Part shown: piece after piece, positions 45,630 through 62,075 of the stretch | How the letters are laid out: the number at the start of each line of letters is the position of its first letter | Position numbering within the stretch: position 1 is the first letter of the stretch | Assembly: GCA_021741145.1 (NCBI GenBank) | Contig: JAIOYK010000024.1 | Coordinates: 1 to 64,000, forward strand | DNA: 64,000 nt | Direction: 5' to 3' | Source: Rhodospirillum sp. | Lineage (GTDB): Bacteria; Pseudomonadota; Alphaproteobacteria; Rhodospirillales; Rhodospirillaceae | Translations under genes and position numbers: made by a program | The notes under the pieces: generated by a model | What the model was told of the DNA's origin: nothing | Databases searched by the model: none | The model's input: the letters and a program-made list of their open reading frames with translations, nothing else

Positions 45630-45788
45630 TCTGAACGCGGAGATCACAAGGGCGCCCCCTTGACATCGGAAAGGATCGGGCCACGCCCTTGACACCCCTT
45701 CCCTCCACCCCCTTCCCCGTGCCATCCTCGTCTTTCGCCCCCAAGCATATCCGCCCCCATGGCCACACCTCTTCGCGGCCCGAGACCA

Positions 45789-47330
45789 ATGACCCCAGAT
45801 TCCCAACGCGACGTCTACGCCTTCCTCTCCACCGGCGGGGCCCATGGCCATCCCGGTGAGCGGGTCGAGCAGATCCACACCCATATCTCCGCCCTCTTCC
45901 TCTGCGGTGACCGTGTTCTCAAGCTGATGCGGGCCATTGCCCTGCCCTATCTGGATCATACCACCCTGGCCGCGCGGAAAGCCTGCTGCGAGCGAGAGGT
46001 CGAGATCAATGGCCCAGGCGCCCCCGGCCTCTACTTGGGCGTTGTCCCCATCACCCGCGACGCCGATGGCCAACTGGCCGTGGATGGGGCTGGCGAGCCC
46101 GTGGAGTACGCGGTCTTGATGTACCGCTTCAAGCAGGGTGCCCTCTTCGACCGTATGCTTGGTCGGGGCCAACTCGACCGTCACCAGATGTGCGACTTGG
46201 CCGAGGCCGTGCTGGCCAGCCATGACCATGCCCCTTCTATCAAAGGGGACGGTGGACGGAATTTCACGGCCATCGTTGAAAACTCCCTGGTTTCCCTGGC
46301 CGAGACCGCCGATGCTCTGGGGTCCGAGCCGGTCCAGACCCTGGACCGGGCCATTCGCGCGGCCCTGGAGCAGGCCCAGCCGGTCCTCGCCAAGCGGGCC
46401 GAAGAGGGCAAGGTCCGGCGCTGCCATGGCGACCTCCACCTGCGCAATATCCTGTGGTGGGACGGCAAACCCACCCTGTTCGACGCCATCGATTTCAACG
46501 ACATGTTCGTCACCATCGACGTCCTCTACGACCTCGCGTTCCTGCTGATGGACCTGGACCACCGGGGCCAGCGGCGCCTCGCGTCCATCACCTTCAACCA
46601 CTACATGGAATACGCCGGAGACACAGGCGGCCTTTCGGTCCTGCCCCTCTTCCTGGCCCTGCGGGCAATGATCCGGGCCTTCGTCCAAGCCACCGCGGCC
46701 CGTGGGTTGAGCGATCCCGAAAAGGCCGCCCGAGAGGTCGAGGAGGGCAAGGCATATTTGGCCCGCGCCCTGGAATACCTCTCCCCACCCGCGCCGCGCA
46801 TGGCAGCGGTTGGCGGGCTATCGGGCAGCGGAAAATCCCGACTCGCCCGGGAATTGGCCTGCCACTTCGGCGCCGCGCCCGGCGCCCTGGTCCTGCGCAC
46901 CGACGTCCTGCGCAAGCGCATCATGGGCAAGAAACCCTACGAGAAGCTGGGACCAGAGGGCTACACGCCGGAGACCCATGCCCGGGTCTATGAAACCCTC
47001 ACGGCCGAGGCCCAGGCCGCGCTGGCCGCGGGCCATTCGGTCATCCTGGATGGAGTCCACGCCCGCCAGCACGAGCGGGAACAGGCCGAAGCCGTGGCCA
47101 CCGAGGCGGGTGTTCCGTTCACTGGACTCTGGGTCCATACGCCCGTCGAAGTGGCCATGAAACGAATCGAAACCCGAGTCCGCAACCCCTCGGACGTGAC
47201 CCTGGAAATCCGGGCCGAACAAGAAAACTTCGACCTGGGGGCGGTCACCTGGACCCGCGTCGACTCCTCCGGCTCCAAGAAGGAAACCCTGGCCCAGGGC
47301 CTCGCCGCCCTGGGGATAGCAAACGCCTAG
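45789..47330 (+). CDS. Bifunctional aminoglycoside-phosphotransferase-like kinase / P-loop ATPase
   Basis: CHGDLHLRNILW...FDAIDFND; GGLSGSGKSRLARELA. Confidence 0.88.
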   Translation: MTPDSQRDVYAFLSTGGAHGHPGERVEQIHTHISALFLCGDRVLKLMRAIALPYLDHTTLAARKACCEREVEINGPGAPGLYLGVVPITRDADGQLAVDGAGEPVEYAVLMYRFKQGALFDRMLGRGQLDRHQMCDLAEAVLASHDHAPSIKGDGGRNFTAIVENSLVSLAETADALGSEPVQTLDRAIRAALEQAQPVLAKRAEEGKVRRCHGDLHLRNILWWDGKPTLFDAIDFNDMFVTIDVLYDLAFLLMDLDHRGQRRLASITFNHYMEYAGDTGGLSVLPLFLALRAMIRAFVQATAARGLSDPEKAAREVEEGKAYLARALEYLSPPAPRMAAVGGLSGSGKSRLARELACHFGAAPGALVLRTDVLRKRIMGKKPYEKLGPEGYTPETHARVYETLTAEAQAALAAGHSVILDGVHARQHEREQAEAVATEAGVPFTGLWVHTPVEVAMKRIETRVRNPSDVTLEIRAEQENFDLGAVTWTRVDSSGSKKETLAQGLAALGIANA

Positions 47331-49080: not shown

Positions 49081-49672
49081 TCATGACGCCAAACGCGCCA
49101 CAATACCCCAGAGGTTTGAATCCTTCACTTCGTCCGCGCCGACAAAGGTCTGGCCCGTCGCCGCCGCCATCAATCGACAGAGGGGCGAAAGAACCGTGAC
49201 CACCGGAATATCCCCCAGAGTATAGGGAATCCCCTGGTCCTCGCAGGAGGTCACGAGCCAAGCGACGGCGGCGGACAGGGGGCTTGCCGTGATGCCCAAT
49301 CGGGAGGCGACGGAGGCCGCGGCCAGGGGCCGCTCCGGTCGAATTGCCGTTTTTCGGGCGACGTCGGCGATGATCGGTTGAATCACATAAACCGTATGTC
49401 CCGTGCCCACGGCCAGGGTCATGCCATCGGTCACCAGGGGGCCAAGGAAAGTCACCGCCTTGGGGGAGCGGCGTGGCAGCCGTTCCGACAACCGTACCAG
49501 CCACTCCTTGCCCCGGGCCGCTTCCAGGGCCGACGCGGCCAAGACGGCGGCGAGGATGATCAACGTCACCGAAATCGGCGCGCCGCCCGGGGACAATCCC
49601 CATGCCCAAGCCACCGATCCACGCGCCCAGATACAGCGCGAGAAGCGTCATCGCCCATTCGATCCAGATCAT
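49081..49672 (-). pseudogene. Truncated, frameshifted Dcu-family (DcuA/DcuB-like) C4-dicarboxylate transporter
   Basis: MIWIEWAMTLLALYLGAWIGGLGMGI in one frame, then PGGAPISVTLIILAAVLAASALEAA...GTGHTVYVIQPIIADVARKTAIRPERPLAAASVASRLGITASPLSAAVA in another; C-terminal half absent. Confidence 0.75.
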
Positions 49673-49825: not shown

Positions 49826-50701
49826 TCACACGAATTTCCGAAACAGCTTCGTCTGATCGAACAACTCTTCCAGGTCTTTCATACGGGTGTGGGTTTCGCT
49901 CCACATGGCGTTCTGAACCGCGGCGATCAGGGCCTCGAGCAGGAAGAGCGTGACCGCCGAACTGTCCCAGGCCGAGGGCGCCTCGATGCGGGCGCGGAAA
50001 GCATGCTTGGCGTATTTCGCCGCCGGCGAGCCCCATTGGTCGGTGAACAGCACGACATCCACCCCTCGCCCCGTGGCCATCTCCGCCAAACGGATAATAT
50101 CATGCTCGTAGCGGCGCACGTCGAAGGCAACCAGGACGTCACCCGGCTTCATGTTCAGCACGTAGTGGGGCCAAGTGTTGGAATTGGGCGCCACCAAGGT
50201 CACCCCACCCCGGATCACCTGCATATGCGTGTAGAAGTAATCGGCCAGGGACCGGGAAATGCGGCCGCCCACGGTATGGATGGTCCGATCCGGATCGGTG
50301 AGCAGACGGGCCACCGAATCGAAAGTCTCCGTACCGATATTGCGCAAGGATTGGCGCATATTGTCCATCACCACGTCGGCGAAGCGATTGAGGATATGGG
50401 TATCCGGCGCGTTCTCCGCCCAGCGGTCATGCTTGGAAATGGGGCTCGAAATGGTGGCTTCCAGCTCCCCCCTCAGGGCCCCCTGCAGGTCGGGAAAGCC
50501 GCCAAAGCCCAGTTTTTTGGCCATGCGCGCCACCGTTGGGGTCGACACGCCCGAGGCCTCGGCCACCGTGGTGATACTGCCCAGGCCGGATACTGGATAA
50601 TTCTCGAGGATGGTATTGGCCAATTGCCGCTCGGCCCGGGTGAGGTCATCGAACCGCGCGCGAATCCGCTCGGCCACCGTCTGGCCTTCCTCCCGATTCA
50701 T
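49826..50701 (-). CDS. MurR/RpiR-family transcriptional regulator
   Basis: N-terminal HTH SITTVAEASGVSTPTVARMAKKLGFGGFPDLQGALRGEL, SIS domain. Confidence 0.93.
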   Translation of the reverse strand: MNREEGQTVAERIRARFDDLTRAERQLANTILENYPVSGLGSITTVAEASGVSTPTVARMAKKLGFGGFPDLQGALRGELEATISSPISKHDRWAENAPDTHILNRFADVVMDNMRQSLRNIGTETFDSVARLLTDPDRTIHTVGGRISRSLADYFYTHMQVIRGGVTLVAPNSNTWPHYVLNMKPGDVLVAFDVRRYEHDIIRLAEMATGRGVDVVLFTDQWGSPAAKYAKHAFRARIEAPSAWDSSAVTLFLLEALIAAVQNAMWSETHTRMKDLEELFDQTKLFRKFV

Positions 50702-51070
50702 TCCACCCTCCCCGATACCAATGTTTCATTTTCAAGGAACCAGACCGCGCCGGGAAACAGGTCATCCTCCGTCCCGGTTTAAACGGGCCGTCCTCCGTCT
50801 TTTATTTCCCGTTCGGCGGACCGCTTCGCTGGTGCCTCTGACATGGGCGGACTTTGCCCGGCGCTCGGACCGCCGAAATCCGCTCCCCGTGATTTCCGCG
50901 GAGTCTCCCTCGGTGAACCGGCGGGATCACTCTGAAAAGGATGCGCCAAAAATTCTGGATGTGAAGAAATATTTTCAAAATGGGTTTGCGGCGGTCCGAT
51001 TTTGTGAAAAGCTGATACTCGATTTTCACGGATCGGCCCCGGGGGAACCGGGATTAGGGGGAAGGGGCGC

Positions 51071-51892
51071 ATGGCCTTGGCGATGGGACAGCGGATGGAC
51101 GCGGAACGGATTCCGGGGGCGGTCGAGATCGTCAATCCCTTGGGTCGGTCCTCCCTTCTTCTGGTCTGCGAGCACGCCTCCCACCACATCCCGCCGGAGT
51201 TCGGATCCCTGGGGTTGAGCGAGGAAGCCCTGACAAGCCATATCGCTTGGGACCCCGGTGCCCGGGACTTGGCCTTCGCCTTAGCCGAGAACCTGGACGC
51301 GACCCTGGTGGCCGCCCGCGTCTCCCGACTGGTTTACGACGTGAACCGGCCGCCGGACTCGGACTCGGCCATCCCCGAGGTCAGCGAAGCCTGGCGCATC
51401 CCCGGCAACGAAAACCTGAGCCCCACCGAGCGGGCGGAGCGGGTGGACCGGATCTATCGGCCGTTCCGCGATGGTTTGGCCGAGACCCTGGACCAACGGA
51501 CTCACGACCGGCGTCCCGTGGCCCTGGTGACCATTCACTCCTTCACTCCGGTTTACAACGGGGTCGCCCGGCAGGTTCAGGTCGGCGTGCTCCATGACAG
51601 CGACACCCGGCTGGCCGACGGCTTCCTCGCGCGCATGGGGGACGGCCGGTTCGACCTGCGCCGCAATGAGCCCTACGCCCCCGCGGACGGAGTCACCCAT
51701 ACCCTGCGGGAACACGGCATTGCCCGGGGTCTGCCCAATATGATGATCGAAATCCGCAACGACCTGCTGGCCAATTCAAGCGATCGGAGCACCATGGCCG
51801 CTTGGCTGGCCTTGGGTCTTCGGTCCACCCTGTCCACTTTCACCGCGGAAGCCTGGGGCACCGCCGACACTTGGGGAGGTGCCCATGCCTAG
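51071..51892 (+). CDS. N-formylglutamate amidohydrolase-family protein
   Basis: LLVCEHASHHIPPEFG, RLVYDVNRPPDSDSAIP, VTIHSFTPV. Confidence 0.9.
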   Translation: MALAMGQRMDAERIPGAVEIVNPLGRSSLLLVCEHASHHIPPEFGSLGLSEEALTSHIAWDPGARDLAFALAENLDATLVAARVSRLVYDVNRPPDSDSAIPEVSEAWRIPGNENLSPTERAERVDRIYRPFRDGLAETLDQRTHDRRPVALVTIHSFTPVYNGVARQVQVGVLHDSDTRLADGFLARMGDGRFDLRRNEPYAPADGVTHTLREHGIARGLPNMMIEIRNDLLANSSDRSTMAAWLALGLRSTLSTFTAEAWGTADTWGGAHA

Positions 51893-52424
51893 CGCCCTGA
51901 TCGCCTATGTCCGGGTGGTCAACAAGATCAACCGGACCATCGGGCGGATCGTCATGCTCGGGATCTTCGTGATGATGGGGGTGCTGCTTTACGCCTCCTT
52001 CACCAAGACCTTTTTCATCCCACCCCTGTGGTCCCTGGAAGTCTCCCAATTCCTGATGGTTGGCTATTTCCTGCTGGGGGGCGCCTACTCCCTGCAAATG
52101 GGCGCCCATGTGCGCATGGATCTGGTCTATGGCAACTGGCGGCCCCATACCCGGACCTGGGTGGACGCCTTTACGGTCCTGTTCCTGATTTTCTATCTCG
52201 CCCTACTTCTTTACGGCGCCATTTCCAGCACCACCTATGCCCTGGAATACGGCGAGCGCAGTTACTCCGCCTGGCGCCCCTATATGGCGCCGATCAAGAT
52301 CATCATGACCTTCGGCATCCTGATGACCCTGCTGCAATCCATCGCCATCCTGATCACCGACGTGGCCCGGCTGCGGGGGATCGAGATCCATGATGGCCTG
52401 AACGAGGAAGAGCGCGAACAATGA
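51885..52424 (+). CDS. TRAP transporter small permease (DctQ)
   Basis: Four-TM small permease; overlaps neighbours. Confidence 0.9.
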   Translation: MPSALIAYVRVVNKINRTIGRIVMLGIFVMMGVLLYASFTKTFFIPPLWSLEVSQFLMVGYFLLGGAYSLQMGAHVRMDLVYGNWRPHTRTWVDAFTVLFLIFYLALLLYGAISSTTYALEYGERSYSAWRPYMAPIKIIMTFGILMTLLQSIAILITDVARLRGIEIHDGLNEEEREQ

Positions 52425-53743
52425 GTTACGAGATGATCGCCCTTCTCATGTTCGCCTCCCTGATGGTCATGATGTTGACCGGTCAGAGGGTTTTCGCCGC
52501 GATTGGTGTCGTCGGCGCCGCCGCGGCCCTGCTGCTGTGGGGCGACGGCGGGGTGGAACTGAGCTTCAGCGCGGCCATGAAGCTGATGAAGTGGTACCCC
52601 CTGCTGACCCTGCCGTTGTTCGTTTTCATGGGCTATATGCTCTCGGAATCGGGCATCGCCGAGGACCTCTACAAGATGTTCCACGTGTGGATGGGGCCGC
52701 TTCACGGCGGACTGGCCATCGGCACGATTGCCCTGATGGTCGTGATTTCGGCGATGAACGGCCTGTCCGTGGCGGGCATGGCCATTGGTGCGTCCATCGC
52801 CCTGCCCGAGCTGTTACGGCGGGGCTACGACAAAATCATGGTCACCGGCGTGATCCAGGCGGGCAGTTCACTGGGTATTCTGGTGCCCCCCTCGGTGGTG
52901 CTGGTGCTCTACGGTATGATCGCCCGCCAGCCCGTCGGTCAACTTTGGCTCGCCGGGGTGTTCCCCGGTCTCCTGATGGCCGCCCTGTTCATCCTGTACG
53001 TGGTCGTCCGCTGTAAGCTCAATCCAGAGCTGGGACCGGCCCTGTCCAAGGAAGAGCGGAATGTTCCCCTGGGCGAGAAGCTGGCCCTGCTTCAGGCGGG
53101 CGTCATTCCCCTGGCCATCTTCTTCTGCATGACCGGCCTGTTCCTGATGGGCATCACCAGCCTGGTGGAAAGCTCGGCGGTGGGCGCGCTCTCGGCCATG
53201 GCCGCGGCCCTGTTCAAGGGGCGCCTGACCAAGAAGATCGTGGAAGACACCCTACGCAAGACCCTGGCCATTTCCTGCATGTTCATGTGGATCATTCTAG
53301 CCGCCCTGTGCTTCGGCTCGGTTTTCGACGGCCTGGGCGCGGTGAAATCCATCGAGGGGCTTTTCGTCGACGACCTGGGATTGTCCCCCTGGGAGGTGCT
53401 GATTCTGATGCAGCTCTCCTACCTGATCATGGGAACCTTCCTCGACGACACGGCCATGCTGGTGATCGTCGCGCCCCTTTATATTCCGCTGGTCGGAGCC
53501 TTGGGCTTTGATTTGGTCTGGTATGGCGTGCTTTACACCATCACTTGCCAGATCGCCTATATGACTCCGCCCTTCGGCTACAACCTGTTCCTCATGCGGG
53601 CCATGGCGCCACCGGAGATCACCCTGGTGGACATCTATCGATCGATCATCCCCTTCGTTATGGTAATGGTCGCCGCCCTGGCCCTCGTGACCGCGTTCCC
53701 AGAGATTGCCCTTTGGCTGCCCCAGCATTTCTACACAAAATAG
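52421..53743 (+). CDS. TRAP transporter large permease (DctM)
   Basis: LTGQRVFAAIGVVGAAAALLLW, GSSLGILVPPSVVLVLYGMIARQPVGQLWLAGVFPGLLMA. Confidence 0.96.
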   Translation: MSYEMIALLMFASLMVMMLTGQRVFAAIGVVGAAAALLLWGDGGVELSFSAAMKLMKWYPLLTLPLFVFMGYMLSESGIAEDLYKMFHVWMGPLHGGLAIGTIALMVVISAMNGLSVAGMAIGASIALPELLRRGYDKIMVTGVIQAGSSLGILVPPSVVLVLYGMIARQPVGQLWLAGVFPGLLMAALFILYVVVRCKLNPELGPALSKEERNVPLGEKLALLQAGVIPLAIFFCMTGLFLMGITSLVESSAVGALSAMAAALFKGRLTKKIVEDTLRKTLAISCMFMWIILAALCFGSVFDGLGAVKSIEGLFVDDLGLSPWEVLILMQLSYLIMGTFLDDTAMLVIVAPLYIPLVGALGFDLVWYGVLYTITCQIAYMTPPFGYNLFLMRAMAPPEITLVDIYRSIIPFVMVMVAALALVTAFPEIALWLPQHFYTK

Positions 53744-53853
53744 ATCCGGGTCAGCCCAGAAGCGTCCCCCCATCAAAGGGGGGAGAGCACCGGACGTATT
53801 CCGGTCCGAGAACACCACTGACCGATTGTTCAACCAGGGAAGGGTTTCGTGAT

Positions 53854-54906
53854 ATGACCAACAGACGGGATTTCATCAAAAAAGCGGGCGTCGCCTCCGC
53901 CGTCGTGGGCGCCGCCTCGCTGTCCGCTCCGGCCATTGTCCGGGCCCAAGCGCCGATCAAGTGGCGCTTGCAGACCTATGCTGGCGCCGCGCTTGGCGAA
54001 TATGTGATCAAGTCCTCCATCGACAAGTTCAATGAAGTGGCCGATGGCCAGATGGAGATCGAACTCTATTACGCCGACCAGCTTGTCCCCACTGGCGAGT
54101 TGTTCCGTGCCATGCAGAACGGCGTGATCGACGCCGTGCAGTCCGATGATGACTCCATGGCCGCGCCGGTCGATGTCTCCGTTTTCGGCGGCTATTTCCC
54201 CTTCGGTACCCGCTACAGCCTGGACGTGCCCGTGCTGTTCGAGAAATACGGCCTGAAGGAAATCTGGCAGGAAGCCTATGGCGAGGTCGAGAACGTCACC
54301 TGGCTGTCCGCCGGATCTTGGGATCCCTGCCATTTCGCCACCAAACAGCCGATCAACACCCTGGACGACCTCAAGGGCAAGCGGGTCTACACCTTCCCCA
54401 CCGCCGGTCGCTTCATGTCCCGTTTCGGCGTGGTGCCGGTGACCCTGCCCTACGAGGACGTGCCCGTCGCCATCCAGACCGGTGAGTTGGACGGCGTCTG
54501 CTGGTCGGGTATCACAGAGGACTACACCGTTGGCTGGGCCGACGTCTGCGACTACTTCCTGACCAACAACATCTCCGGCGCCTGGATCGGCTCCTACTTC
54601 GCCAACACCGAGAAGTGGAATGCCGTCCCCGCCCACCTACAGACCCTGTTCAAGCTCTGCATGGACAGCAGCCATTACCATCGCCAGTGGTGGTACTGGG
54701 GCGGCGAGGCCGACCTGCGCGTCAACGGCTCCAAGCTGAAGCTGACCACCCTGCCCGACGCCGAATGGAAGAAGGTGGAAGACGCCGCCCACGAGTTCTG
54801 GGACGAAATCGCCAAGGAATCCGATCGCAGCGCTAAAATCGTCCAAATTCTGCGCGACTATTCCGCCCTGATGCAGAAGGCTGGACCTCCGTACCGCTTC
54901 GGTTGA
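53854..54906 (+). CDS. TRAP transporter substrate-binding protein (DctP), Tat signal
   Basis: NRRDFIKKAGVASAVVGAASLSAPAIVRAQAPIKWRLQTYAG. Confidence 0.93.
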   Translation: MTNRRDFIKKAGVASAVVGAASLSAPAIVRAQAPIKWRLQTYAGAALGEYVIKSSIDKFNEVADGQMEIELYYADQLVPTGELFRAMQNGVIDAVQSDDDSMAAPVDVSVFGGYFPFGTRYSLDVPVLFEKYGLKEIWQEAYGEVENVTWLSAGSWDPCHFATKQPINTLDDLKGKRVYTFPTAGRFMSRFGVVPVTLPYEDVPVAIQTGELDGVCWSGITEDYTVGWADVCDYFLTNNISGAWIGSYFANTEKWNAVPAHLQTLFKLCMDSSHYHRQWWYWGGEADLRVNGSKLKLTTLPDAEWKKVEDAAHEFWDEIAKESDRSAKIVQILRDYSALMQKAGPPYRFG

Positions 54907-55075
54907 TCCGGGATTTGATCCAAGGGTTGGTCCCCACCGCTCCCCCTGCCTCCAATCGGAGAGGGCCAACTCCAAATCCACGAACCCGCCCCACCTGGGC
55001 CTTGGCTTCAGGTGGGGCGGCGCGTGGTTGTCGAGTAAAGCTCCAAGACGCGAGGCACACCGTGGGAAGGACGCC

Positions 55076-56446
55076 ATGCCCGGAAAACTGACCCTAGAAG
55101 ACCTCCGTACCGCCGCCGGTACGGGTGACATCGACACCGTCCTGGTGGTCCTGGTGGATATGCAGGGCCGCCTGATGGGCAAGCGGTTCCATGTGGATTT
55201 CTTCCTGGACAGCGGCTGGGAGGAGACGCACTCCTGCAACTATCTGCTGGCCACGGACATGGAGATGGAGACCGTTGGGGGCTACAAGGCCACCAGTTGG
55301 GAAAAGGGCTATGGCGACTACATCATGAAGGCCGACCTGACCACCCTGCGCCGGATCCCCTGGTTGGAGGGAACCGCGCTGGTGCTCTGCGACGTGCTCG
55401 ACCACCACACCCACGCCGACGTGCCCCATTCCCCCCGGGCCATTCTCAAAAAGCAGGTGGCCCGCCTGGAAGCCATGGGCTTGAAGGCAATGATGGCCAG
55501 CGAGCTGGAGTTCTTCCTGTTCGAGGAGAGCTTCGAGGACCTGCGCCACATGGGCTACCGGGGCATGACCACCATCAGCGGCTATAACGAGGACTATCAC
55601 ATCTTCCAGACCACCAAGGAAGAAGACGTGATGCGGGCCATCCGCAATGGTCTGAACGGCGCGGATATCCCCGTGGAGAACTCCAAGGGCGAGGCCAGCC
55701 CCGGGCAGGAGGAAATCAACGTCCGCTACGCCGATGCCTTGACCATGGCCGACCGCCATGTGCTGATCAAGAACGGCTGCAAGGAAATCGCCTGGTCCAA
55801 GGGCCGGGCGCTGTCGTTCATGGCCAAGTGGTCCGACACCGCCGCGGGCAATTCCTCCCACCTGCACCAGTCGCTTTGGAGTCTGGACGGAAAGCCCCTC
55901 TTCTTCGATCCAGACCGCCCCCATGGCATGTCCGAGATAATGGAACAGTTTCTCGCCGGACAATTGGCCCACGCCGGGGAGATCACTGTCTTCCTCGCCC
56001 CCTATATCAACAGTTACAAGCGCTTCTCCGCGGGTACCTTCGCGCCGACCAAGGCTATCTGGTCGATGGACAACCGCACCGCCGGGTTCCGGGTCTGCGG
56101 CGCCGAGTCCAAGGGCGTGCGCGTGGAATGCCGGATCGGAGGCGCCGACCTCAACCCCTATCTGGCCGCCGCCGCCCTGATCGCCGCGGGACTGGATGGG
56201 ATCGAAAAAGCACTTCCCCTGGAGCCGGAATTCAAGGGGGATGCCTACAAGGGCGGGAAGGAAATCCGGGAGATCCCCGGCACCCTGCGCGCCGCGGCCG
56301 ACAGCCTGGATGGTTCGGAGCTGATGCGCGTGGCCCTTGGCGACGACGTCGTGGACCACTATGTCCACGCCGCCCGGTGGGAACAGACAGAGATGGACCG
56401 CCGGGTTACCGACTGGGAAGTCATGCGCGGCTTTGAAAGGGCCTGA
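55076..56446 (+). CDS. Glutamine-synthetase-family protein (gamma-glutamylamide synthetase-like)
   Basis: MASELEFFLF, NSSHLHQSLWSLDG, APYINSYKRFSAGTFAPTKAIWSMDNRTAGFR, VECRIGGADLNPYLAAAALIAAGLDGI. Confidence 0.92.
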   Translation: MPGKLTLEDLRTAAGTGDIDTVLVVLVDMQGRLMGKRFHVDFFLDSGWEETHSCNYLLATDMEMETVGGYKATSWEKGYGDYIMKADLTTLRRIPWLEGTALVLCDVLDHHTHADVPHSPRAILKKQVARLEAMGLKAMMASELEFFLFEESFEDLRHMGYRGMTTISGYNEDYHIFQTTKEEDVMRAIRNGLNGADIPVENSKGEASPGQEEINVRYADALTMADRHVLIKNGCKEIAWSKGRALSFMAKWSDTAAGNSSHLHQSLWSLDGKPLFFDPDRPHGMSEIMEQFLAGQLAHAGEITVFLAPYINSYKRFSAGTFAPTKAIWSMDNRTAGFRVCGAESKGVRVECRIGGADLNPYLAAAALIAAGLDGIEKALPLEPEFKGDAYKGGKEIREIPGTLRAAADSLDGSELMRVALGDDVVDHYVHAARWEQTEMDRRVTDWEVMRGFERA

Positions 56447-56451
56447 CTGGA

Positions 56452-57840
56452 ATGTCATCCGTATTGAAGTGTATCTCCCCCATTGACGGGTCCGTTTACG
56501 CGGAGCGTCCCGTCGCCACGCCGGACGCGGCCAGGGAGGCCATAGCCAAGGCCCGGACCGCCGGGAAACTTTGGGCCAAGCGCCCCCTGTCCGAGCGGAT
56601 CGCGCTGGTGCTCCAGGGTGTCGCCCGCCTGGGCGAAATGACCGACGAGATTGTCCCCGAGCTGGCCCATATGATGGGCCGTCCGACGCGCTATGGCGGC
56701 GAGTTCGGTGGCGTGACCGAGCGCGCCACCTACATGGCCAAGATCGCCGAAAGCGCGCTCGCGCCCCTGGTTTACGAGACTTCCGACCGCTTCGAGCGGC
56801 GGATCGAGCGGGAGCCCCATGGCGTGGTCTTCGTCATCGCGCCCTGGAACTACCCCTATCTGACAGCCATCAACACCGTCGCTCCGGCCCTGATGGCGGG
56901 CAACGCGGTGGTCATCAAGCATGCCACCCAGACCCTGCTGGTCGGCGAGCGCATGGTGCGTGCCTTCACCGAAGCGGGCCTGCCCGAACACCTGTTCCTC
57001 AACCTGTTCCTTGACCACGCCACCACCGAAACCCTGATCAAGGACCGGGCCTTCAACTTCATCAACTTCACCGGATCCGTCGGCGGCGGCGCGGCCATCG
57101 AGCGCGCGGCGGCGGGCACCTTCACCGGCCTGGGGCTGGAGTTGGGCGGCAAGGACCCCGGCTATGTGATGGAGGACGCCGACCTGGACGCCGCCGTCGA
57201 CACCCTGATGGACGCGGCCATGTTCAACTCCGGCCAGTGCTGTTGCGGGATCGAGCGCATTTACGTGGTCGACTCCCTCTATGATGCCTTCGTGGAGAAG
57301 GCCGTCGCCCTGACGCGGGGCTACAAGCTGGGCAACCCGCTGGATCCGGAAACCACCCTGGGTCCCATGGCCAATGCGCGCTTCGCCAAGGAAGTCCGCG
57401 CCCAGACCGCGGAAGCCCTGGTCCAGGGCGCCAAGGCCCTGATCGACCCGGCCCTTTTCCCCCAGGACGACGGGGGCGCCTATCTGATGCCCCAGATCCT
57501 GGTGGACGTGACCCATGACATGCGGGTCATGCGCGACGAAAGCTTCGGCCCCGTCGTCGGCATCATGCGCGTCTCCGGCGACGAGGAAGCGCTGGCGCTG
57601 ATGAACGACTGCGCCTATGGCCTGACCGCCTCCCTGTGGACCAAGGACGCAGCCCGCGCCGCGACCCTGGGCGCCCAAATCGAGACCGGCACCGTGTTCA
57701 TGAACCGGGCCGATTACCTGGATCCCGCCCTCTGCTGGACCGGCTGCAAGGACACGGGCCGGGGCGGTGGCCTGTCCGAAATCGGCTACCACAACCTGAC
57801 CCGTCCCAAGTCCTACCATCTCAAGAAGGTGACGAAATGA
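56452..57840 (+). CDS. Aldehyde dehydrogenase family protein
   Basis: VIAPWNYPYLTAINTVAPALMAGNAVVIKHA, GLELGGKDPGYVMEDADL, FNSGQCCCGIERIYV. Confidence 0.94.
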   Translation: MSSVLKCISPIDGSVYAERPVATPDAAREAIAKARTAGKLWAKRPLSERIALVLQGVARLGEMTDEIVPELAHMMGRPTRYGGEFGGVTERATYMAKIAESALAPLVYETSDRFERRIEREPHGVVFVIAPWNYPYLTAINTVAPALMAGNAVVIKHATQTLLVGERMVRAFTEAGLPEHLFLNLFLDHATTETLIKDRAFNFINFTGSVGGGAAIERAAAGTFTGLGLELGGKDPGYVMEDADLDAAVDTLMDAAMFNSGQCCCGIERIYVVDSLYDAFVEKAVALTRGYKLGNPLDPETTLGPMANARFAKEVRAQTAEALVQGAKALIDPALFPQDDGGAYLMPQILVDVTHDMRVMRDESFGPVVGIMRVSGDEEALALMNDCAYGLTASLWTKDAARAATLGAQIETGTVFMNRADYLDPALCWTGCKDTGRGGGLSEIGYHNLTRPKSYHLKKVTK

Positions 57841-58985
57841 GCCCGACCGCCAACTGGTCCTACCCCACCGCGATCCGCTTTGGCGCCGGACGCATCAAGG
57901 AACTCGCCGAGGCTTGCTCCGCCTGCGGCATGAAAAAGCCCCTGCTCATCACCGACAAGGGCTTGGCGCCCCTGCCGATCACCACGGCGACCCTCGACCT
58001 GCTGGAAGAGGCTGGTTTGGGCCGGGGCCTGTTCTCCGAGGTCGATCCCAACCCCACGGAGCACAATTTGGCTGCCGGCATCGCCGCCTATAAGGCCGGC
58101 GGCCACGACGGGGTCATCGCCTTCGGGGGCGGCTCTGGCCTGGATCTGGCCAAGTTGGTGGCCTTCATGGCCGGTCAAACCCGCTCCGTCTGGGATTTCG
58201 AGGATATCGGCGACTGGTGGACCCGGGCCGACGCCTCGGCCATCGCCCCGATCATCGCCGTACCGACCACGGCGGGCACTGGATCGGAAGTGGGCCGCGC
58301 GGGCGTTCTGACCAACTCCGAAAGCCATGTGAAGAAGATCATCTTCCACCCGAAGATCCTCCCCGCTGTCGTGATTTGCGATCCTGAGCTGACCGTCGGC
58401 ATGCCGCCCGCCATCACCGCGGGCACCGGCATGGATGCCTTCATCCACTGCCTGGAGGCCTATAGCAGCCCCTTCTACCACCCCATGTCCCAGGGCATCG
58501 CCTTGGAGGGCATGCGGCTGGCTTACGAATTCCTGCCGAAAGCCTTTAAGGACGGTGGGGACATCGAGGCCCGGGCCCATATGATGAGCGCCGCGGCCAT
58601 GGGCGCGGTCGCCTTCCAGAAGGGTCTGGGCGGCATCCACGCCCTCTCGCACCCCGTGGGCGCCCTCTACAACACCCACCACGGCACCACCAATGCCGCG
58701 GCGATGGCCCCGGTCCTGCGCTTCAACCGCCCGGCCATCGAGGATAAGCTGGCCGCCGCGGGCGCCTACCTGGGCCTGTCCGGTGGGTTCGACGGCTTCG
58801 TGGAGGCCATCCTGGCCCTGCGGGAGTCCGTCGGAATCCCCTCGAACCTGAAGGCACTGGGCGTCGGCACGGACAAGATCGACCTCATGGCCGAGATGGC
58901 CGCCGTCGATCCCTGCGCCGGGGGCAACCCCGTGGACCTGACCCCCGCGGCCGCCCGCGCCCTCTATGAGGAATTGGTGGCATAA
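57837..58985 (+). CDS. Iron-containing alcohol dehydrogenase
   Basis: GVIAFGGGSGLDLAKLVAFM, VPTTAGTGSEVGRAGVLTN, GIHALSHPVGALYNTHHGTTNAAAMAPVL; ATGA overlap with ALDH. Confidence 0.94.
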   Translation: MSPTANWSYPTAIRFGAGRIKELAEACSACGMKKPLLITDKGLAPLPITTATLDLLEEAGLGRGLFSEVDPNPTEHNLAAGIAAYKAGGHDGVIAFGGGSGLDLAKLVAFMAGQTRSVWDFEDIGDWWTRADASAIAPIIAVPTTAGTGSEVGRAGVLTNSESHVKKIIFHPKILPAVVICDPELTVGMPPAITAGTGMDAFIHCLEAYSSPFYHPMSQGIALEGMRLAYEFLPKAFKDGGDIEARAHMMSAAAMGAVAFQKGLGGIHALSHPVGALYNTHHGTTNAAAMAPVLRFNRPAIEDKLAAAGAYLGLSGGFDGFVEAILALRESVGIPSNLKALGVGTDKIDLMAEMAAVDPCAGGNPVDLTPAAARALYEELVA

Positions 58986-59859: not shown

Positions 59860-61425
59860 TTGAAAAACGCCCTATACGCGGTTTTCTTCATGGCGCTGCT
59901 GACGGCACCATCCATATCGGTCGCAAGTACGGCTGACCATTCCAAATTCGACCAATTAAATGGCCCCTTCTCCACGGCGGAGAGCGTCACCAAGGCCTGT
60001 TTGAGTTGCCACACAAAATCCAGCGCCCAGGTGATGGACTCGCTCCATTGGACTTGGGACACGACCCATCCCGTCACCGGCCAAGCGCTTGGTAAGAAGC
60101 GGATCATCAACAGCTTCTGCGGCTCTCCCCTCTCCAACGAGCCCCGATGCACCTCCTGCCATGCCGGCTATGGCTGGACGGACTTGCGTGACTCCGCCCC
60201 GACGGATCCGACCAAGGTTGACTGTCTCGTCTGCCACGACACATCGGGAGCCTACGAGAAGATCCCCACGGACGCCGGATATCCACAGCTCGCCCCGCGC
60301 ATGATCGGGGGCAAACTGGTCCAACCGCCGGATCTCTCAAAGATCGCCAGAAGCGTGGGAAAGTCCGGACGGGAAAACTGTGGCGCTTGCCATTTCAATG
60401 GCGGCGGCGGCGACGGTGTCAAACACGGGGACCTGGATACATCGCTGATCAACCCACCTCTGGACCTGGACGTGCACATGTCCGCCGACGGGGAGAATAT
60501 GTCCTGCTCCCAGTGCCACACCTTCAATGACCATATCCCCTCGGGGTCGCGCTATAGGACCACCGCGGTTGACACCCACGGTCTTGACCTGCCCCATGAC
60601 GACCATGACCGGGCCACCTGTGAATCGTGCCATGGCGGAACGCCCCACCAGGACGCCAAACTCGACGACCACACGGATCGGGTGGCCTGTCAAACCTGCC
60701 ACATCCCCGAATTCGCCCGGGGCGGGGTCGCCACGAAGACCTGGTGGGACTGGTCGACTGGCGGCCGCAAGGACGCGGACGGCAAGCCCCTTTACATCAA
60801 GGATGAGCACGGCCACTTGTCCTATTCGGCCCAGAAAGGCGACTTCAAATATGAAGAGAACGTCCGCCCCGCCTACCTCTGGTACAACGGATTGATCGAG
60901 CAGACGGCCGTCACGGATAAGCTCGACAGCCATATGACAGACGGGATCCTGATCCTCAATAGGATCGAGGGTAGCGCCACGGACGGTAAATCCCGAATCT
61001 GGCCCTTCAAGGAAATGCGGGGCAAGCAACCCTACGATCCCGTCAACAACACCCTGGTCGTCAACCACGTCTTCGGCGACGATGACAGTGCCTTCTGGAC
61101 CAACTTCGACTACCCGAAGGCCATCGCATATGGCATGGCCTACGCGGGCCTTCCGTGGAGTGGGACCCTCGACTTCATCGAAACCCGCATGTACTGGCCC
61201 ATCACCCATATGGTCGCGCCCAAGGAACAGGCCCTACGCTGCGGGGCCTGCCATACCACGGACCCCGGAGGCCGCATGGCCACCCTTTCGGGCTTTTACT
61301 TACCTGGGCGGGACCACGCCCTGCTCCTCGACATCCTTGGCTACCTGATGCTCGGCGGGTCTCTCGTCGGCGTGTTTCTCCACGGTGCCGTCCGGATCCT
61401 TCTGCGCAAGAGGCCCTCGCCATGA
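59860..61425 (+). CDS. Octaheme c-type cytochrome, tetrathionate-reductase (OTR) family, with C-terminal TM anchor
   Basis: Eight CXXCH motifs (CLSCH, CTSCH, CLVCH, CGACH, CSQCH, CESCH, CQTCH, CGACH); signal peptide; TTG start. Confidence 0.93.
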   Translation: MKNALYAVFFMALLTAPSISVASTADHSKFDQLNGPFSTAESVTKACLSCHTKSSAQVMDSLHWTWDTTHPVTGQALGKKRIINSFCGSPLSNEPRCTSCHAGYGWTDLRDSAPTDPTKVDCLVCHDTSGAYEKIPTDAGYPQLAPRMIGGKLVQPPDLSKIARSVGKSGRENCGACHFNGGGGDGVKHGDLDTSLINPPLDLDVHMSADGENMSCSQCHTFNDHIPSGSRYRTTAVDTHGLDLPHDDHDRATCESCHGGTPHQDAKLDDHTDRVACQTCHIPEFARGGVATKTWWDWSTGGRKDADGKPLYIKDEHGHLSYSAQKGDFKYEENVRPAYLWYNGLIEQTAVTDKLDSHMTDGILILNRIEGSATDGKSRIWPFKEMRGKQPYDPVNNTLVVNHVFGDDDSAFWTNFDYPKAIAYGMAYAGLPWSGTLDFIETRMYWPITHMVAPKEQALRCGACHTTDPGGRMATLSGFYLPGRDHALLLDILGYLMLGGSLVGVFLHGAVRILLRKRPSP

Positions 61426-62075
61426 CCCACAAACGCGATGTGATGATCTATACGCGCTATGAGCGCTTTTGGCACTGGTCCCAGGCCGTGCTCATCTTCA
61501 CCCTATTCTTCACCGGCTTCGGCATTCACGGAACCCACGATCTGCTTCCCTTCGGCTTGGCTGTCATGATCCACCAGACGGCGGCCATTGTGCTCATCGG
61601 TCTATGGATCTTCACCACGTTCTGGAACTTCACCACCGGCCAATGGCGGCAATACCTGTTCAAGAAGGGGATCCTCAAGATCATCCGCTTCTACGCCTAT
61701 GGCATTCTCAAGGGCGAGCCTCATCCCTACAAAAAGTCCCTGCAACGCAAGCAAAACGCCTTGCAATCCCTGGCCTATATGACCTTCATGACCGTGATCG
61801 GCCCGGCCCTCTGGGCTACCGGGATTGTCTATTTGCTCTACAACGAATGGAGCCATTTCGACGGGGCGGGCGAGGCCCTCGGTATTGTCGCCCTATTGCA
61901 CACCGCCGCGGCTTTCGCCATGGGCACATTCGTGATCATCCACATTTACATGACGACGACGGGCAAAACCCCCTTGCACTACGTCAAAACCATGATCACC
62001 GGCTACGACAGGATCGAACTCAGCGAAGTCGAGGAGGCCTACTTGGCCGAAACCAAGGCCGCCGAGATGAAATAA
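61422..62075 (+). CDS. Cytochrome b (b561/NapC-partner-like) membrane subunit
   Basis: YTRYERFWHWSQAVLIFTLFFTGFGIH; ATGA-type overlap with the octaheme gene. Confidence 0.88.
   Translation: MTHKRDVMIYTRYERFWHWSQAVLIFTLFFTGFGIHGTHDLLPFGLAVMIHQTAAIVLIGLWIFTTFWNFTTGQWRQYLFKKGILKIIRFYAYGILKGEPHPYKKSLQRKQNALQSLAYMTFMTVIGPALWATGIVYLLYNEWSHFDGAGEALGIVALLHTAAAFAMGTFVIIHIYMTTTGKTPLHYVKTMITGYDRIELSEVEEAYLAETKAAEMK

Follow-up and report, generated by a model that had tools for sequence, protein, structure and literature searches.

A predicted Eto-type ethanolamine-utilization operon in Rhodospirillum sp. and the apparent exchange of back ends among related loci

The gene cluster described here, carried by Rhodospirillum sp. 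on contig JAIOYK010000024.1 and analysed within a 64,000-nt window of that contig (the window), is very likely an Eto ethanolamine-utilization operon, whose products would convert ethanolamine to glycine via gamma-glutamyl intermediates. It is a member of an already known and published operon type. In the accessible portion of Westermann et al. 2023 (PMC10132767), the Phaeobacter sp. MED193 operon MED193_10021-10056 is given as RpiR, GGAH, EtoV, EtoW, EtoX, ETAGA, GAADDH and GETADH. Compared by this published gene list, the same eight genes occur in the same listed order here, in a different host.

According to the same portion of that paper (PMC10132767), MED193 EtoX binds ethanolamine with a Kd of 7.9 uM and is the one protein of the operon tested biochemically; levels of EtoX and of all four enzymes, five proteins in total, are higher on phosphorylethanolamine. 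It also describes the MED193 genes as closely related to ethanolamine-pathway genes of C. salexigens and A. tumefaciens C58 (citing Vetting et al.), and places etoX in ~5-10% of marine bacteria. Neither the TRAP importer nor the FGase-like deglutamylase is new, as both are assigned to the pathway in MED193 (as EtoVWX and GGAH), contrary to an earlier sequence-only reading of this DNA that had offered the two as new parts; the structure of Csal_0678 with ethanolamine (4UAB) had likewise been solved earlier.

Layout and proposed pathway

Seven tightly packed genes lie on the + strand between positions 51071 and 58985, with overlaps, in the order that the sequence-only reading had described, and each has Pfam support. 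They encode an FGase-family hydrolase, predicted to be a gamma-glutamylglycine amidohydrolase or GGAH (51071-51892; PF05013, 153 bits), the TRAP small permease DctQ, or EtoV (51879-52424; PF04290, 65 bits), the TRAP large permease DctM, or EtoW (52421-53743; PF06808, 234 bits), and the TRAP solute-binding protein DctP, or EtoX, a predicted ethanolamine binder (53854-54906; Pfam DctP, 69.5 bits; 4uab/4xf5). These are followed by a GS-like ligase, the predicted ethanolamine gamma-glutamyl ligase ETAGA (55076-56446; Gln-synt_C, 333 bits; 5dm3), an ALDH, predicted to be the gamma-glutamyl-acetaldehyde amide dehydrogenase GAADDH (56452-57840; PF00171, 381 bits), and an Fe-ADH, predicted to be the gamma-glutamylethanolamide dehydrogenase GETADH (57837-58985; PF00465, 162 bits; PF25137, 132 bits). 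Overlaps of 14 bp join FGase to DctQ, of 4 bp DctQ to DctM and of 4 bp ALDH to Fe-ADH, and gaps of ~110 bp and ~169 bp separate DctM from DctP and DctP from the ligase gene. The likely starts of DctP, the ligase and Fe-ADH are 53854, 55076 and 57837; the longest open reading frames would give 53545, 55028 and 57636.

The seven-gene unit stands as proposed, but its extent was drawn too short, since it left out a divergent RpiR gene (49826-50701, - strand) and the intergenic region before FGase, to which the unit extends. Our scan of genome contigs returned at least 584 candidate EtoX relatives, of which the best 80 loci were analysed. The arrangement is not chance, because the complete eight-gene order recurs in 23 of these 80, with the divergent RpiR gene preceding FGase.

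The enzymatic steps of this pathway are ones that we infer from homology, residues and gene neighbourhood. EtoX would capture ethanolamine and EtoVW would import it, and the GS-like ligase would form gamma-glutamylethanolamide from ethanolamine, glutamate and ATP. The Fe-ADH would then oxidize the alcohol of gamma-glutamylethanolamide to an aldehyde, the ALDH would convert this aldehyde to gamma-glutamylglycine, and the FGase-family hydrolase would split gamma-glutamylglycine into glycine and regenerated glutamate. The evidence fits the earlier proposal of import, gamma-glutamylation, oxidation from alcohol to aldehyde to acid, and amide hydrolysis, and the amino-alcohol substrate that it put forward narrows to ethanolamine, a compound on its list. 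Ethanolamine stems from phosphatidylethanolamine, a main bacterial membrane lipid. Once the operon is recognized, its genes need no longer be mislabelled as glutamine synthetase, HutG and a dicarboxylate transporter.

Likeness to the C. salexigens and A. tumefaciens C58 pathway is at the protein level, with the closest solved relatives being 4uab for DctP, 5dm3 for the GS-like ligase and Atu2144 (2ODF) for FGase. The actinobacterial GlnA4 of Streptomyces coelicolor (PMC6529630) shares the first step, formation of gamma-glutamylethanolamide by a GS-like enzyme. The E. coli Puu pathway shares the logic of GS-like gamma-glutamylation, oxidation, ALDH and deglutamylation, but it uses the amine oxidase PuuB and the class-I GATase PuuD where the present cluster has Fe-ADH and FGase; the Puu putrescine pathway is rejected here, as no PuuB-type amine oxidase or PuuD-type hydrolase is found among the seven operon genes. 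The Eut system (EutBC, microcompartment) acts on the same substrate through an ammonia-lyase, with no gamma-glutamylation. This route is also rejected here, since EutB was not found in the host's own genome by a search in which the E. coli control was positive.

Importer, ligase and substrate

The closest solved chain to DctP is by far 4UAB/4XF5 (E=7.1e-161; runner-up 5e-17). 4UAB is Csal_0678 of Chromohalobacter salexigens with bound ethanolamine, and Glu220 and aromatic residues line the ligand (PMC12410723); Csal_0678 is without Arg-147, the residue by which TRAP binding proteins hold carboxylates (PMC4646407). We aligned the window's DctP with 80 homologues and with 20 further DctPs of its own genome. 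The carboxylate-Arg column holds Tyr179 in the window's DctP, Phe or Tyr in 80/80 homologues, and Arg in all 20 other DctPs, and with Tyr179 as the equivalent of Arg-147, a carboxylate TRAP transporter is rejected. Glu222 is conserved in all 80 homologues and is probably the ethanolamine-site Glu, corresponding to Glu220 of 4UAB under an assumed offset. By its match to 4UAB and its missing carboxylate Arg, this DctP, which carries a Tat-type signal (TIGR01409 model), is EtoX-type and is predicted to bind ethanolamine; such binding is shown for its homologues in C. salexigens and MED193. The 5.5-Mb genome has a large TRAP repertoire, with 39 DctP-family binding proteins, alongside 7 GS-family genes. 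DctM is 65-85% identical across the related loci that retain it.

Three related loci in MAGs, L056 (Opitutaceae) and L085 and L087 (Zoogloeaceae), carry the EtoX importer followed by EutB and EutC, which are 53-56% and 34-40% identical, respectively, to their E. coli counterparts. This pairing is an independent pointer to ethanolamine as the importer's substrate. Probes of the related loci with E. coli PuuA, PuuD and PuuB gave no informative match, and EutB/EutC alone were informative. The same pathway could act on another substrate, L-alaninol, 3-aminopropanol or isopropanolamine, and yield alanine or beta-alanine, not glycine, but we regard this as improbable. Such substrates have some appeal, as ethanolamine-binding sites accept analogues (CqsR has crystal structures with L-alaninol and serinol), as 4xf5, a second entry of the Csal_0678 chain, presumably carries an aminopropanol, and as isopropylamine/alaninol catabolism runs via gamma-glutamylation. 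Against them stand the pairing of the importer with ethanolamine ammonia-lyase in three genomes and, in the accessible text on MED193, the induction of Eto proteins by phosphorylethanolamine and the binding of ethanolamine by EtoX at 7.9 uM.

The best solved relatives of the ligase predicted to glutamylate ethanolamine are 5dm3 (E=1.9e-191), which we take to be Csal_0679, the neighbour of Csal_0678, and 11zs (E=5.3e-187). Relative to E. coli GlnA, it keeps E129, E131, E212, E220, H269, R321, R339, R344, E357 and R359, in a comparison that leaves out Asp50 because the N-terminal alignment is unreliable. The sequence-only reading had named a ligase without GS catalytic residues as evidence against itself, and the ten residues tested are all intact. 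In GlnA, Glu327 handles ammonium (deprotonation). The corresponding position is Phe in the window's ligase and in 32/32 close homologues, and Tyr in E. coli PuuA, a gamma-glutamyl amine ligase. GlnA identity is rejected on this replacement, although the catalytic residues are present, and the residue pattern is what one would expect of an amine ligase rather than of an enzyme that makes glutamine. Six further GS-family genes occur in the genome, one of which (L005) is a canonical GlnA with Glu327 and every tested residue intact. It is most improbable that the window's gene encodes a standard glutamine synthetase for ammonium assimilation, with generic dehydrogenases and a functionally separate carboxylate TRAP importer as its neighbours, a view favored by the Pfam Gln-synt_C match and by PDB records that label its relatives 'glutamine synthetase', but opposed by the Phe at position 327, the canonical GlnA elsewhere in the genome, scores far under the NCBIfam GlnA cut-offs, a DctP without the carboxylate Arg, and a gene order conserved between loci.

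Within the Eto pathway, the FGase is predicted to be the gamma-glutamylglycine amidohydrolase on the basis of its position, its family and its replacement by a GATase at other loci. Its closest solved relative is 2ODF, Atu2144 (E=1.4e-74; Agrobacterium by locus prefix), and H35, H57, D61, H156 and E227 are invariant in 36 rows of its alignment. HutG, the N-formylglutamate deformylase, is rejected as an identity, with a score of 29.5 bits vs the NCBIfam cut-off of 278.75. The putative metal-site residues of the Fe-ADH (D200, H204, H268 and H282) are invariant in 49 rows, and E230, C264 and C265 of the ALDH in 51 rows; the ALDH had no match to solved structures at E<=1e-90.

Related loci and probably exchangeable back ends

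Across the 80 loci analysed, FGase follows the type of GS gene. In 32 loci the GS gene is close to that of the window, and 28 of these loci have FGase (one of the four without it is on a short contig). A second GS lineage is present in 24 loci, where FGase occurs in 0/24 and a class-I GATase in 12, and no locus of the 80 has FGase and GATase together. The association of FGase with GS type has a Fisher p=9e-12, for loci that share ancestry and are not phylogenetically independent. The simplest reading of this pattern is that FGase and GATase would perform the same deglutamylation. Four loci with no GS gene (L014, L041, L021 and L038) showed no ethanolamine enzyme among the importer neighbours scanned, and their catabolic genes may lie elsewhere.

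We consider it likely that the EtoX importer serves as a common entry for ethanolamine, joined to one or another of three exchangeable back ends: the GS-like ligase with FGase, as here; the second GS lineage with a class-I GATase, in Vibrio, Thalassospira and others; and the EutB/EutC lyase of Opitutaceae and Zoogloeaceae. On this view, the FGase family would contain a genuine gamma-glutamylglycine hydrolase that takes the place of PuuD without being homologous to it, and TCTGAAAANNNNTTTTCAGA would be the operator particular to this group of RpiR regulators. Such exchange, whether of the hydrolase or of the entire back end, opens the way to direct tests of the role of the FGase-family member. 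Within the accessible papers, we found no description of the swap of FGase for a class-I GATase together with a different GS-like ligase.

Among relatives of Rhodospirillum sp., the operon was present in 5 of 79 genomes, its own genome counted, and it was not found in the one other same-genus genome searched. Gain or loss of the operon by transfer could explain this patchy spread.

RpiR regulator, predicted operator and flanking genes

The RpiR-family regulator (HTH_6, 58 bits; SIS, 78 bits) is the counterpart of MED193_10021. Between its gene and FGase lies a predicted operator, TGTGAAGAAATATTTTCAAA (50960-50979), with 3 mismatches to the palindrome TCTGAAAANNNNTTTTCAGA. This palindrome comes from perfect palindromes in a small number of the intergenic regions between rpiR and FGase, and it was scored on the same set of regions that supplied it, so that its shuffle values are optimistic. 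Of 32 regions, the 22 with an RpiR at least 57% identical, the window's included, match it at 11-16 of 16 positions, and the 10 whose RpiR is 35-42% identical match it at 9-11 of 16. The 64-kb window contains one match, at 50960-50979, where 0.04 would be expected. RpiR probably controls the operon via this palindrome, and in the accessible literature, we found no description of such an RpiR operator.

The flanks of the operon hold several other genes. Adjoining the RpiR gene is a truncated DcuA/DcuB C4-dicarboxylate transporter (49081-49611, - strand) that matches profile positions 35-195 of 368, probably a gene remnant. Further out, at 45759-47327, an APH-like phosphotransferase region is fused to an AAA_33 kinase-like domain, with a weaker Zeta_toxin Pfam match. 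Directly 3' of the operon, 59860-62075 holds a gene for a cytochrome c of the octaheme tetrathionate-reductase family (TIGR04315, 623 bits) and, after it, a cytochrome b561-type gene.
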